From NCBI GenBank assembly GCA_025054635.1, contig JANWZM010000003.1:1-33503 (forward strand): a stretch of DNA of 33,503 nucleotides, in the 5' to 3' direction. The position numbers and the translations under genes were made by a program. The DNA is from Thermoflexales bacterium. GTDB lineage: Bacteria > Chloroflexota > Anaerolineae > J036 > Brachytrichaceae. Position 1 is the first letter of the stretch; the number at the start of each line of letters is the position of its first letter. This document shows positions 22,430-27,098 of the stretch, piece by piece. Under the pieces are notes generated by a model, which was given only the letters and a program-made list of their open reading frames with translations, had not been told where the DNA came from and ran no database searches.

Positions 22430-23659
22430 CTAGCGCTTGGGGCGAAGCAGGTCTTGGTAAAGCGCTTCAAGCGACGGCACGATGCGTGTCCAGTCATAGC
22501 GCGCGGAGACGAAGCGATAAGCGCGCTCACCTAGCTCCTTTCGGCGCGCCGGGCTGCGAAGCAGCTCATTCACCGCACCAGCGAACTCAGCGGCGCTGTC
22601 AGCGATGATCATCTCGCGTCCGGAGGCAACTTCAAATCCCTCACAGCCCAGCGTAGTGGTGACAATTGCCTTGCGCATGGACATTGCCTCTAGCAGCTTG
22701 AAGCGTGTGCCGCCCCCTGCCAGCAGCGGCGCAACATACACATCCGCCTGGGCGATATATGGTCGCACGTCCTCCACCTCGCCAGTCAGACAGATGCTCG
22801 GGTCGTTGCGCAGCCCGTCTAAGCGCGCACTCGGCTTCTGTCCAACGATTAGCAGTCGTGCTTGAGGGTGTGCTGCCTTGACTGTCGGCCAAACAGCGCG
22901 GCTGAACCACAGCATCGCGTTGACGTTAGGTCTGAAGTCCATCTTGCCCGTAAAGACAAGCGTGGGCGCGCCAGATGACTGTGATGGCGTTGCACTGGCG
23001 TACTCGGCAACGTCAATCCCATTGGGGATCACTTGCGGGTCGAGCTGTGCGTCCAGGCGACGTAGCGCTTGCGCATCTTGCTCGGAGACACACAAGGTGA
23101 GGGACGCTACGCGCGCGGCACGGCGTTCGAAGACGCGCAGCCGCTGCCACTGCACCAGCGAGTAAAGCGCAGCGTGCCAACGCAGCGGACTGCGCATGTC
23201 CACCTGAAACGTGCGCTGCTGCAGCAGGTATTCGCAGTTGTGGTCGTCGAACACAAGCCGTGCGGGCAAGCGCCCCGCTTCGCGTGTGAGCGCCATCCCA
23301 TACCGCGCAAGCTCGATGCCCTCGACTTGGACGACATCGAAGTGGTGTCCGCTGAGCAAGTCGCGCAAAGTGCTCAGAAAGGCAGGTGACCAGAGTCGCC
23401 AGGCTATGTCGGGCAGCGCTGAGGTGAGCAAGGTGCGCAACCGCTGGCGATGAGTGCGACGCGGCGCGGGGATCCGCACAACGCGCGCGCATGTTTCGCC
23501 CAGCAATGCAGGCAATGGCGTGTGTGGTGCCTCGTCAAAGGTCAGCAGCCACACCTCATGCCTGCGTGCAGCTAGATGTCGGATCAGTCCCCAGTTGCGA
23601 AGCGCAGTGCCCTGCCTCGGCGGATACGGAAGTTGAGGTGTGAGAAAGAGCAGCCGCAT
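22430..23659 (-). CDS. Glycosyltransferase, family 4 type (GT-B fold)
   Basis: This 409-residue GT-B enzyme transfers a sugar from an activated donor. It has the N-terminal LLFLTPQLPYPPRQGTALRN loop, the DVVQVEGIE stretch, and in the C-terminal domain the start TLVFTGKMDFRPNVNAMLWF and the donor-binding GTRFKLLEAMSMRKAIVTT. It resembles the GT4 group. The ATG at 23659 overlaps the stop of the upstream glycosyltransferase by one base (TGATG), which rules out the longer start at 23728. Acceptor and sugar are unknown; the setting suggests surface polysaccharide. Confidence 0.87.
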   Translation of the reverse strand: MRLLFLTPQLPYPPRQGTALRNWGLIRHLAARRHEVWLLTFDEAPHTPLPALLGETCARVVRIPAPRRTHRQRLRTLLTSALPDIAWRLWSPAFLSTLRDLLSGHHFDVVQVEGIELARYGMALTREAGRLPARLVFDDHNCEYLLQQRTFQVDMRSPLRWHAALYSLVQWQRLRVFERRAARVASLTLCVSEQDAQALRRLDAQLDPQVIPNGIDVAEYASATPSQSSGAPTLVFTGKMDFRPNVNAMLWFSRAVWPTVKAAHPQARLLIVGQKPSARLDGLRNDPSICLTGEVEDVRPYIAQADVYVAPLLAGGGTRFKLLEAMSMRKAIVTTTLGCEGFEVASGREMIIADSAAEFAGAVNELLRSPARRKELGERAYRFVSARYDWTRIVPSLEALYQDLLRPKR

Positions 23660-24780
23660 CAAAGCGCGACCATCGCGCCAGCCGCAGCGCGGTAGATCGC
23701 TAGAGTCTCTTGTGCCGCGCGTTGCCAAGAGAACGCCTGCGCACGTGCGCGTCCCCGTTTGGCGAACTCAGCGTGCAACGCGTCGCTTTGCCACAGCGCC
23801 AAGATGTGGTTTGCTAGTGTCGCATCGTCCAACGGGTCGTGCATCAGCGCAGCATCGCCAGCAATCTCCGGAAGTGACCCAGAATTGCTGCACACCACCG
23901 GCGTCCCGCGCGCCATCGCCTCCAGCACAGGCAAGCCAAACCCCTCACTGAGTGAAGGCATGGCGAGCAAGCGCGCCGCGCGATACAACGCATCCAGCTC
24001 CGCGTTTGTGACATGTCCAAGCAAACACACGCGCTCCTCCACACCGAGCGACTGTGCAAGCTCCCCCGGCGCTGTTCCCCCCCATCCTTCCGCGCCGACG
24101 ACGAACAGGCGTATCTCATCTGGCAGACGCCTGAGCGCGCGAAGCAGCGTGACCAAGTTCTTGCGCGGCTCCAACGTGCCGACAAAGAGCACAAACGGGC
24201 GGTGCTCCATCAGGATCGCGGAAGGCGACTCGCTGACCTCGTCAGCCGCCTCATACACAACTGCAACCCGCTCAGGGTTGATCGCCTTGATCAGCCGAAG
24301 CACGTCGTCGTGTGTGTGCCGCGACGGAGTAATGATGTAATCCGCCATTCGCGCCGATTGGTACACCCGGCTGTAGTAACGCTGACCATCGCTGTTCATC
24401 ACCTCGGCATGCTCCAGGAAGTACAGATCGTGAATCGTGATCACTTTGTGGAAGCGTCCTTGACAAGTGATGAAATCAGGTGAATGGAGCACGTCGAAGG
24501 AGAAGCGCGCCAGCTCGCCAGGGAGAGTCAGATGCTCTAAGCGGTGGTGGGCAGGAGTCAGTGTGCGCAGAATTGTGACGTTGGGGGGTGTCCAGAACGT
24601 GTCTTCATCACGGCGGTCGAGTAGGGCGTATAGAGTGAGATCGGGCTGCTCCAACGCTGCCAGTGCTTGAATTAGTCGCTTCGTGTAGTTTGCAATCCCC
24701 GCCTGCCTGTAATACATCAGGCGGCAATCGATCGCAACGGACAACCCAGCGTGATGTCCGTTCTTGCCGTTTCTGGTCAT
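23659..24780 (-). CDS. Glycosyltransferase family 4
   Basis: This 373-residue GT-B enzyme is a clear GT4 member. It has CRLMYYRQAGIANYTKRLI near the N-terminus, DVLHSPDFITC, ITIHDLYFLEHAE, FVLFVGTLEPRKNL at the start of the second Rossmann domain, and the donor-site block EGFGLPVLEAMARGTPVVCS with the E-x7-E pattern. Such enzymes often add mannose or glucose to lipid-linked or surface glycans. The ATG at 24780 is chosen over 24807 because the upstream codons overlap the AT-rich promoter region shared with the divergent pdhA remnant. It is the first gene of a tightly coupled three-gene operon. Confidence 0.88.
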   Translation of the reverse strand: MTRNGKNGHHAGLSVAIDCRLMYYRQAGIANYTKRLIQALAALEQPDLTLYALLDRRDEDTFWTPPNVTILRTLTPAHHRLEHLTLPGELARFSFDVLHSPDFITCQGRFHKVITIHDLYFLEHAEVMNSDGQRYYSRVYQSARMADYIITPSRHTHDDVLRLIKAINPERVAVVYEAADEVSESPSAILMEHRPFVLFVGTLEPRKNLVTLLRALRRLPDEIRLFVVGAEGWGGTAPGELAQSLGVEERVCLLGHVTNAELDALYRAARLLAMPSLSEGFGLPVLEAMARGTPVVCSNSGSLPEIAGDAALMHDPLDDATLANHILALWQSDALHAEFAKRGRARAQAFSWQRAAQETLAIYRAAAGAMVAL

Positions 24781-24810
24781 GCCAGCCTCAAGCCTCGCAC
24801 AGGGCATAAA

Positions 24811-24816
24811 TATAAT
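24811..24816 (+). promoter_or_regulatory. -10 box of decayed pdhA gene
   Basis: A perfect TATAAT on the plus strand lies 7 bases before the GTG that would start the E1-alpha reading frame, so the original message was probably leaderless or nearly so. The same AT-rich patch reads TATATT on the minus strand and may serve the divergent glycosyltransferase operon. No strong -35 is seen. Confidence 0.4.
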
Positions 24817-24823
24817 CCTTTTC

Positions 24824-25120
24824 GTGACCCCCGCGCCTGAATGGTTACTAAAGCGCTACCGCCCAATGGTGCTCATCCAGCAGTTCGAGCTGCGTGCAAT
24901 AAGCGGGTTGACCTTCGGCTTCATCCACCTCTGCATCGGTCAGGAGGCGTATGCTGTTGGCGCTTGTGCAGCGCTGCGCTCGGACGATGTGATCACCAGC
25001 ATGCACCGTGTGGCATGGTCACTTGATCGCCAAGGGCGGTGACGTGCGCCGAATCTTGGCAGCGCTTGCTGCGCGACAACTGGCTACTGCGCTGGCAAAG
25101 GCGGCAGCTTGCCCATGACC
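24824..25120 (+). pseudogene. Remnant of pyruvate dehydrogenase E1-alpha gene
   Basis: The translation shows the N-terminus of a thiamine-diphosphate dehydrogenase E1-alpha subunit broken over three frames. Frame one gives LLKRYRPMVLIQQFELRAI, then FGFIHLCIGQEAYAVGACAALRSDDVITSMHR. An extra T at about 25011 breaks the expected R-G-H-G-H. Frame two then reads GHLIAKGGDVRRILAALAARQ. A one-base loss at about 25080 moves to frame three, GYCAGKGGSLPM, matching the family's GYCKGKGGSMH. A few residues are also missing before FGFIHL. Only about 97 of the usual 320-370 residues remain, and no E1-beta or E2 gene follows. A GTG at 24824 is the likely former start. Confidence 0.83.
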
Positions 25121-25137
25121 GCTTCCGTAGACACTAC

Positions 25138-25172
25138 GAGGGCGACTCACAGGTATACCGCGAGTCGCCCTC
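25138..25172. repeat. Perfect 11-bp inverted repeat (hairpin)
   Basis: GAGGGCGACTC (25138-25148) and GAGTCGCCCTC (25162-25172) are perfect inverted copies around a 13-base loop that itself contains the palindrome GGTATACC. The hairpin sits between the pdhA remnant and the convergent GH5 gene, about 70 bases past the GH5 stop. No U-run follows on either strand, so it is not a classical intrinsic terminator, though it could still stop or stabilise the GH5 transcript. Confidence 0.7.
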
Positions 25173-25243
25173 TGCCCGTCCAGAAAATGCGCCGGTCAGC
25201 GTCTACGCTGGGACGCACGGCGGCGCCATGCTTTGACTGGGGT

Positions 25244-26362
25244 CTAAGGGATCAGCGCCTTCAGTAGGGGTTCGAGCCAAGTCTGGGTCGCTGGGTTGTA
25301 AATGCCGAAGCCGTGACCGAATTCCCAATATGCCCAGGTGATCCCTCGCGCCTCAGCTGCTCGGGCAACATATGCTGTCCAGCGCGCGCGGTCTTCTAGG
25401 TCGGCGTGCAAGCCGTAGGCGCCGAACTCGCCCATCCAGACGGGCAAATTCTTGTCTTTGCTCCAGCGCGCCACCGCGTTGAAGGTGCGGTCAATCGCTG
25501 CGCGTTGGGCATCCGTGCCTTCCCAGCGCGTGCCGATCCAGTCGGCGCTACCTTGCACCCAGTTCGCGCCCTGGTGGGTGAACACCTCTGGCTCATAAAA
25601 GTGGAACGTGGCGATGATGTAGGGGTCATTGGGCGGCTGGATGGTAAACAGGCTGGAGGCTTTGCCCCAGTTCGCGCCGGTGAAGATCACATTCCGCGTT
25701 GGGTTGGTGCGGCGGATGACGCGAAGCGCATCGTCAAAAAGCACACTCCACACCCGAGTAGTTAGCGCGCCATGTGGCTCGTTGAGCACTTCGAACAGCA
25801 CTGTCGGCGGCAAATCCCTATAGCGCGTCGCAATTTGATCCCACAGTGCCAAGAAGCGATCCCACTCCGCGTTGGGATTCTCGAAAAGCTCCTCGTAGTG
25901 ATGCACGTTGATCACTACGTTGAGGTCATTGTTCAGGGCTTGCTCGATGACCCAGTCGATCCGCTCAAAGAATGCAGGGTCAATTGTGTAAGGCGACTCG
26001 CGTAAAGCGTGCGCCGACCAGCGAATGGGGACGCGCACGGTGTCGAAACCAGCTTGGCGGATGATCGGGAAGAAATAGTCCTCGATCCGAAAGCCCCATT
26101 CGCCCTCAGTGGGCGCTTCGAGGGCGTTGCCGAAATTCACCCCTCGCCCCAGGCGCTTCTGCATTTCAAATGGGCTGATGGGGGCGTAAGAACCGCTGTC
26201 AGGCATCTGTTGCGCTCCCGTCTGGACAGGAGCAGGTTGCTCACTTTGCGGCTGATTTGGCAGCGCGGTCGGGGCTGGCTGCACAGGCTGGCGGGCAACA
26301 CCAGCACAGGCAGTCAAAGCTAAAGCAGTTGCCAGCAAGGCTTGTCTCAGGTGCATATACAT
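25244..26362 (-). CDS. Glycoside hydrolase family 5 lipoprotein (endoglucanase-like)
   Basis: This retaining GH5 enzyme likely cuts beta-1,4-glucan or mannan at the cell surface. The 372-residue protein begins with a lipoprotein signal (LTAC lipobox, Cys19), followed by a Pro/Gln-rich spacer. The catalytic domain contains RLGRGVNFGNALEAP, FDTVRVPIRWSAH, the acid/base Glu in VLFEVLNEPHG (about 193) and the nucleophile Glu in VWMGEFGAYG (about 312). The ATG at 26362 has a GGAGG 8 bases upstream, so the longer start at 26401 is unlikely. It lies 13 bases after rnc and is probably on the same transcript. The lgt gene at the window end makes the enzyme that lipidates such proteins. Confidence 0.9.
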   Translation of the reverse strand: MYMHLRQALLATALALTACAGVARQPVQPAPTALPNQPQSEQPAPVQTGAQQMPDSGSYAPISPFEMQKRLGRGVNFGNALEAPTEGEWGFRIEDYFFPIIRQAGFDTVRVPIRWSAHALRESPYTIDPAFFERIDWVIEQALNNDLNVVINVHHYEELFENPNAEWDRFLALWDQIATRYRDLPPTVLFEVLNEPHGALTTRVWSVLFDDALRVIRRTNPTRNVIFTGANWGKASSLFTIQPPNDPYIIATFHFYEPEVFTHQGANWVQGSADWIGTRWEGTDAQRAAIDRTFNAVARWSKDKNLPVWMGEFGAYGLHADLEDRARWTAYVARAAEARGITWAYWEFGHGFGIYNPATQTWLEPLLKALIP

Positions 26363-26375
26363 GTCCACATCCTCC

Positions 26376-27098
26376 CTACAAACGACTCTGCTCGCCCTCA
26401 CTGGTCACGGATACGAGGGCACTGCATTGCGGAGTAAACCATTGGTCTAGGCAGGCAAGCGCGGCTTGAGCAGCCGCCTGCTCAGCCTGCTGCTTGCTCG
26501 AGCCGCGCCCAGTACCGACCTGGCGGTCACCGACCCAGACACTGACCGTGAACTGTTTGGCGTGATCTGGACCTTCACTTGTGACCAGTCGGTAGCGCGG
26601 GGTTATCCCGAGCTGACCCTGGGTGAGTTCTTGGAGGCGGCTCTTGGCATCGCGGTCAAGGTTTGCCTGCACAATCTGCGGGGCGCGCTGAGCAAACATC
26701 GGCTCGACCAGCGCGCGCACTGCGTCAATACCCTGGTCAAGGTAGAGCGCGCCTAGCATTGCTTCGAAGGCGTCACCTAAGATGTTGTCGCGCTCACGTC
26801 CGCCGCTGTCCTCCTCACCTCTGCCGAGCTTAATCTGCTCGCGCAAGCCGATAGCGCGAGCAAAGTCTGCCAAGGTATTGACTTTGACCAGCGCCGCGCG
26901 CAGGCTGGTCAAGCGTCCTTCATCCAGTTCTGGGTAATGCCGAAACAGCCAAGCTGCAGCGACGAAGTCGAGAATAGCATCGCCCAGGAATTCCAACCGC
27001 TCATTGTCTGCGCCGCCCAATTCAGGGTGCTCGTTCGCATACGATGTGTGTGTCAGAGCACGCTCGAGCAGCGCCGGATCGCGAAAGGTCGGCAGCAT
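26376..27098 (-). CDS. rnc: Ribonuclease III
   Basis: RNase III cuts double-stranded RNA in rRNA processing and mRNA turnover. The protein of about 240 residues has the signature NERLEFLGDAILDF with the metal-binding Glu and Asp residues, the second acidic cluster GDAFEAMLGALYLDQG, and a C-terminal double-stranded RNA-binding domain (SRLQELTQGQLG through GSSKQQAEQAAAQAAL). I chose the ATG at 27098, just inside the fabF end; a TTG at 27122 would overlap fabF by 20 bases and add eight residues, and the N-terminal helix favours neither clearly. The fabF-rnc pairing is common in bacteria. Confidence 0.94.
   Translation of the reverse strand: MLPTFRDPALLERALTHTSYANEHPELGGADNERLEFLGDAILDFVAAAWLFRHYPELDEGRLTSLRAALVKVNTLADFARAIGLREQIKLGRGEEDSGGRERDNILGDAFEAMLGALYLDQGIDAVRALVEPMFAQRAPQIVQANLDRDAKSRLQELTQGQLGITPRYRLVTSEGPDHAKQFTVSVWVGDRQVGTGRGSSKQQAEQAAAQAALACLDQWFTPQCSALVSVTSEGEQSRL

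Follow-up and report, generated by a model that had tools for sequence, protein, structure and literature searches.

The segment of DNA between positions 24824 and 25236 on the plus strand is a remnant of a gene for an E1-alpha subunit (PF00676), and we read it, with a probability of about 0.95, as a unitary pseudogene lying in its original place and derived from an E1-alpha paralogue that some members of the family retain. The window, by which we mean the whole stretch of 33,503 nucleotides that was analysed, corresponds to contig C68 in the draft genome (G000) of an environmental Chloroflexota bacterium; this assembly has a size of 2.69 Mb, is distributed over 275 contigs and is 92.8% complete. 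The case is a well-supported, ordinary gene loss, in which the damage is wider than the original prediction stated; that prediction had ended the feature at 25120. In the intact relatives the gene would make the alpha half of the thiamine-diphosphate E1 enzyme of a 2-oxo acid dehydrogenase. In the lineage of the window it was destroyed by an in-frame loss of 12 nt, two frameshifts and two internal deletions of about 421 and about 150 nt, in an order that we infer, and translation begun at the former start codon would end at 25042. Two further E1 enzymes, both intact, presumably supply the activity.

The similarity to E1-alpha that had been noticed from the DNA alone was borne out and begins at the GTG at 24824. 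The first segment matches the Pfam family E1_dh with 24.7 bits, above the cut-off of 22; the orthologue in G001, a genome of the same genus, is intact and scores 303.6 bits. When the genome was searched with this family, a match of 26 bits with one TGA inside it was found at the remnant; the two later frames, taken on their own, gave no Pfam match there. The lesions were mapped against the intact gene of G001, which is 996 nt long. Up to 25121, the window retains positions 7–77 and 90–310 of that gene. Segment 1 (24824–25010, plus strand, frame offset 0) keeps the GTG start, is 75% identical over 57 amino acids to the proteins of both G001 and G002, and contains the 12-nt in-frame deletion, at 24900/24901. 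It is followed by a one-base insertion at about 25011, which agrees with the inserted T that had been proposed, and by segment 2 (25011–25075, plus strand, offset 1). A base had also been said to be lost near 25080; the loss is real, and alignment to G001 places it at about 25075/25076, after which segment 3 (25076–25119, plus strand) returns to offset 0. The first three segments thus lie at offsets 0, 1 and 0 and therefore use two frames, not the three originally described, the third being used only by the 3′ pieces. The alignment of the later frames with E1-alpha, on which the original prediction had staked itself, is present: in translation from 25011, one frame resembles GHGHLIAKGGDVR (score 90) and another resembles TGYCAGKGGSLHM (score 65), against a score of 20 for the remaining frame. 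The original reading frame hits a TGA at 25040–25042.

Beyond this point the remnant continues. Positions 730–771 of the G001 gene correspond to 25120–25161 of the window, and these bases make up segment 4 (plus strand, offset 2), which follows the deletion of about 421 nt and has 83% nucleotide identity to G001 over 42 nt. Positions 919–994 correspond to 25159–25234, and a TGA stop lies at 25234–25236; segment 5 (25162–25236, plus strand) thus holds the C-terminal codons and the stop, after the further deletion of about 150 nt. The sizes of both deletions are given after allowing for bases common to the two sides of each joint. The two 3′ pieces translate as RFRRHYEGDSQVYR and ESPSARPENAPVSVYAGTHGGAML, and at the matching places the intact G001 protein reads RFRGHYEGDPQVYR and ESPLADPQEALIGVYGDTHGGAVF; the score of each piece was reached by none of 2000 shuffles. 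Since these pieces match positions 730–771 and 919–994 and end in a stop at 25236, the gene is not truncated at its 3′ end, as had been supposed. Rather, both ends are kept and the middle is gone, with a net loss of 583 nt (996 minus 413), about 58% of the gene. The missing part includes the thiamine-diphosphate motif of the E1-alpha family, which we take to be GDG...NN; the corresponding stretch of G001, GDGATNQG...CENN, falls inside the 421-nt deletion. In this the window copy differs from the E1-alpha subunits of pyruvate and branched-chain 2-oxo acid dehydrogenases (PF00676; PDB 3exf, 1ni4, 1um9 and 1dtw). The G001 orthologue is a full E1_dh open frame of 331 amino acids, compared with five lesions in the remnant, and it matches the human type of pyruvate dehydrogenase E1-alpha over residues 6–316 with an E value of 8e-64.

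The −10 box, TATAAT at 24811–24816 on the plus strand, is intact as originally described and ends 7 nt before the GTG. Among the 12 relatives with an intact gene, eight (G001, G002, G007, G012, G016, G020, G021 and G023) have the same hexamer 6–8 nt ahead of the GTG; in the other four (G006, G008, G009 and G014) TATAAT is not at that spacing from the start codon that was used. One published study describes such close spacing of −10 box and start codon as the mark of leaderless genes, and reports these genes in 4 of 12 Chloroflexi genomes, where they make up only 4.0–5.7% of genes (PMC3160421). The position of the box suggests that in the relatives the intact gene is probably transcribed from TATAAT as a leaderless mRNA, and the placing of a −10 box directly before the GTG, kept in most intact relatives, is of interest in itself. 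The hexamer may have persisted in the window by lying in a short region common to the promoter of the divergent glycosyltransferase gene.

That glycosyltransferase gene, of family 4 (23659–24807, minus strand), and the second glycosyltransferase gene of a conserved block (22430–23728, minus strand) fix the place of the remnant. When the region was used as a DNA query against 40 relatives, both same-genus genomes, G001 and G002, gave 74% nucleotide identity. In each of them one continuous match of 3.2 kb, bounded by the query's own start, runs through both glycosyltransferase genes into the E1-alpha gene. An intact orthologue is divergent from the same two glycosyltransferases in 10 of the 12 family loci that hold the intact gene (G001, G002, G007, G008, G009, G012, G014, G016, G021 and G023). 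As to the remaining two, G006 has the alpha gene and the glycosyltransferases on separate contigs, and G020 carries the alpha gene on a contig of only 3.9 kb. The orthologues of G001 (L074:8970-9965, minus strand) and G002 (L075:8335-9330, minus strand) have in common with the remnant their place, the divergent glycosyltransferases, the TATAAT and the GTG, as well as 75% amino-acid identity over the 57 residues of segment 1 and a recognisable C-terminus. The downstream neighbours differ: fur and then glgA follow in G001 and G002, and in the window a convergent GH5 cellulase-like gene (25244–26401, minus strand) is found, which is not the downstream neighbour in either of those genomes. The glgA gene of G000 is on contig C178. 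The listed start of the glycosyltransferase gene at 23659–24807 may be some codons early, as same-genus matches begin at codons 8–10 and others later.

Homology is thus accompanied in the remnant by disabling changes (two frameshifts, a TGA and the internal losses of about 421 and about 150 nt) and by the genomic place of the relatives' intact orthologue. In addition, an intact copy of this orthologue was not found in the 92.8% complete assembly, in which only C160 and C197 carry E1-alpha genes besides the remnant. C197 encodes an intact alpha subunit of 346 amino acids beside a beta subunit of 327, and C160 an intact alpha-beta fusion of 710 amino acids. The existence of these two genes is what gives some colour to the idea that the remnant is a stray duplicate fragment of another E1-alpha gene and not a dead orthologue. 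We regard this as barely credible, because over segment 1 the closest match of the remnant is the syntenic gene of G001 and G002 (75%), against only 50–51% for the paralogues at other loci of its genome, C197 and C160, because it keeps the −10 box and both ends of the orthologue and holds the ancestral place, and because no intact counterpart of the G001 gene was found at any other place in the 92.8% complete assembly.

The original prediction had named the gene pdhA and suggested that loss of a pyruvate or branched-chain dehydrogenase subunit meant either metabolic change or a redundant copy. Its proposed check for an intact pdhA elsewhere succeeded, in the C197 alpha gene with its beta and in the C160 fusion. 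The C197 alpha passes the NCBIfam model for pyruvate dehydrogenase E1-alpha, with 420 bits against a cut-off of 393.85. Since the pair and the fusion are intact and the C197 alpha passes this cut-off, loss of pyruvate dehydrogenase is not indicated by the gene content; of the two options the redundant copy is preferable, with two intact E1-alphas present. The name pdhA is itself unsafe, because the intact G001 orthologue falls below both TIGR03182 (354.4 versus 393.85 bits) and TIGR03181 (282.9 versus 411.35 bits). That the enzyme of the dead gene acted on a 2-oxo acid is what its family would lead one to expect, and the paralogues presumably cover the lost function. The annotation is accordingly corrected to that of a syntenic dead E1-alpha, with pyruvate dehydrogenase apparently kept.

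How long ago the gene died may be judged by comparison with its neighbour. The remnant has 43 of 57 residues in common with G001. Over about the same stretch, the intact proteins of G006 (50/58), G007 (49/59), G012 (50/59) and G009 (49/59) have more, and intact genes of other genera overall have 46–50 of 58–59 residues the same as G001, so that intact genes of other genera resemble the gene of the congeners more closely than the remnant does. For the adjoining glycosyltransferase the identities to G001 are 280/371 in the window, 256/356 in G006, 240/355 in G007, 229/355 in G012, 245/355 in G023 and 201/349 in G009. This protein shows the expected order of kinship and the remnant does not; the amino-acid sequence of the remnant therefore appears to have changed faster than its neighbour predicts. 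The changes specific to the window number 8, 13 and 19 at codon positions 1, 2 and 3, and no significant difference from any of 10 intact orthologues was seen (the lowest of 20 Fisher P values was 0.10). The 13 second-position changes are nevertheless the highest of the eleven rows, the others having 5–9. With the glycosyltransferase as control, the share of third-position changes is similar (23/48 versus 109/216). To judge by these counts, the codon-position test shows no relaxed constraint, and this counts against the pseudogene reading. Inactivation is neither ancient nor brand new. The word "fresh" in the original prediction is apt insofar as promoter, start and stop are kept and the codon positions are not significantly shifted, but not with respect to the faster amino-acid change and the disappearance of 583 of about 996 nt.

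The same observations bear on whether an intact gene has been broken only by errors of sequencing or assembly. The draft assembly comprises 275 contigs and two of the lesions are single bases; however, base-calling errors do not account for the disappearance of 12, about 421 and about 150 nt together with faster amino-acid change, and the flanking glycosyltransferase and GH5 genes are open. We consider such an origin very improbable.

At the second deletion joint there is a perfect 11-bp inverted repeat (25138–25172), which as minus-strand RNA gives a stem of 15 pairs. Relative to the convergent GH5 gene it is situated about 70 nt past the stop codon, and a 96-nt fold at this site has an energy of −48.7 kcal/mol (z −4.0). 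As a repeated element it was discarded, the pattern occurring only here in the genome with up to 3 mismatches allowed. The repeat could be due to chance or to templated mutation, or it could be a terminator for the GH5 gene. The last possibility belongs to a wider one, that the remnant has been reused, either with the −10 box driving a short RNA or peptide or with the hairpin terminating convergent GH5 transcription. The kept promoter, the z score of −4.0 and the distance of about 70 nt from the GH5 stop speak for reuse, yet a terminator scan of 24600–25400 found no terminator-like site, the left arm of the hairpin is old E1-alpha coding sequence, and the −10 box may simply persist from a fairly recent inactivation or through overlap with the promoter region of the glycosyltransferase. 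Reuse of the remnant is in our opinion unlikely.

If the remnant is a dead E1-alpha gene, the question arises of its partner. With an E value limit of 1e-6, an E1-beta gene was found near the intact alpha gene in none of the 12 loci, which were covered in stretches of 3.9–13 kb. A lone beta gene, 74–94% identical to that of G002 (on C42), is present in 14 of 23 family relatives (G001, G002, G006–G009, G014, G016–G018 and G020–G023); in G001 the gene straddles two contig ends that overlap exactly by 127 bases. The intact alpha gene is present in 12 of the 23, as counted with a 58-residue query alone in G016–G023 and with a second search too in G001–G015. Both genes occur in 11 relatives, alpha only in 1, beta only in 3 and neither in 8 (Fisher P 0.003, overstated by relatedness). 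When the count is restricted to the 18 genomes with a completeness of at least 90%, the corresponding numbers are 11, 1, 0 and 6 (P 0.0004, likewise overstated by relatedness). The three genomes with beta only (G017, G018 and G022) are all less than 88% complete, and the single genome with alpha only, G012, is 99% complete, which counts against partnership. In G001, G002 and G006 the lone beta is directly downstream of an rRNA operon, between the 5S rRNA and a GT2 glycosyltransferase gene (L104:5393-6367, L105:7183-7746 and L107:5804-6781). In cyanobacteria pdhA and pdhB are unlinked. Outside the family, the closest relatives of the alpha (58% identical) and of the lone beta (61%) adjoin in one gene run of G030, a genome of another family. 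In trees the orphan-alpha clade (12 rows) and the lone-beta clade (13 rows) are each supported (100/99), but the link of the two clades to the G030 pair is not resolved, with long G030 branches, weak forks and long-branch warnings, and it is the best-hit identities of 58% and 61% that suggest it.

These distributions raise the possibility, which we put at somewhat under even odds, that the dead gene was half of a split E1, its alpha beside the glycosyltransferases and its putative partner beta alone elsewhere, and that in G000 the alpha died and the beta was lost or left partnerless. Were this so, the lineage of the window would be a natural test of whether alpha and beta really work together. 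The intact relatives offer a checkable case of a split E1, having an E1-alpha with no beta adjoining it and, at another locus, a lone beta that is similarly distributed. An orthologue of the lone beta of G002 was not found in G000, where its expected place is not assembled: the beta sits between 5S and GT2 in G001, G002 and G006, contig C188 ends inside GT2 (match 26854–26961 of 26963), and a search for 23S rRNA, positive in only 10 of 14 control genomes, gave no match in the G000 assembly. Joint loss of the partner beta in G000 is thus unproven.

G000 does possess a lone beta gene on contig C162 (L103:6193-7194), which is less likely to be the partner of the dead alpha, as it belongs to another group of betas; its identity is 93% to lone betas of another genus (G009 and G014), 80% to a lone beta of G008 and 82% to the alpha-paired betas of G007 and G012. 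None of the betas listed for G001 and G002 belongs to this group, and the neighbouring DNA is 75–85% alike. Horizontal transfer or a contaminating contig would account for its origin. G009 (C38, C11 and C31) and G014 (C47, C79, C110 and C76) each seem to have two alphas and two betas that stand alone, and each of these genomes may possibly hold two split E1 enzymes.
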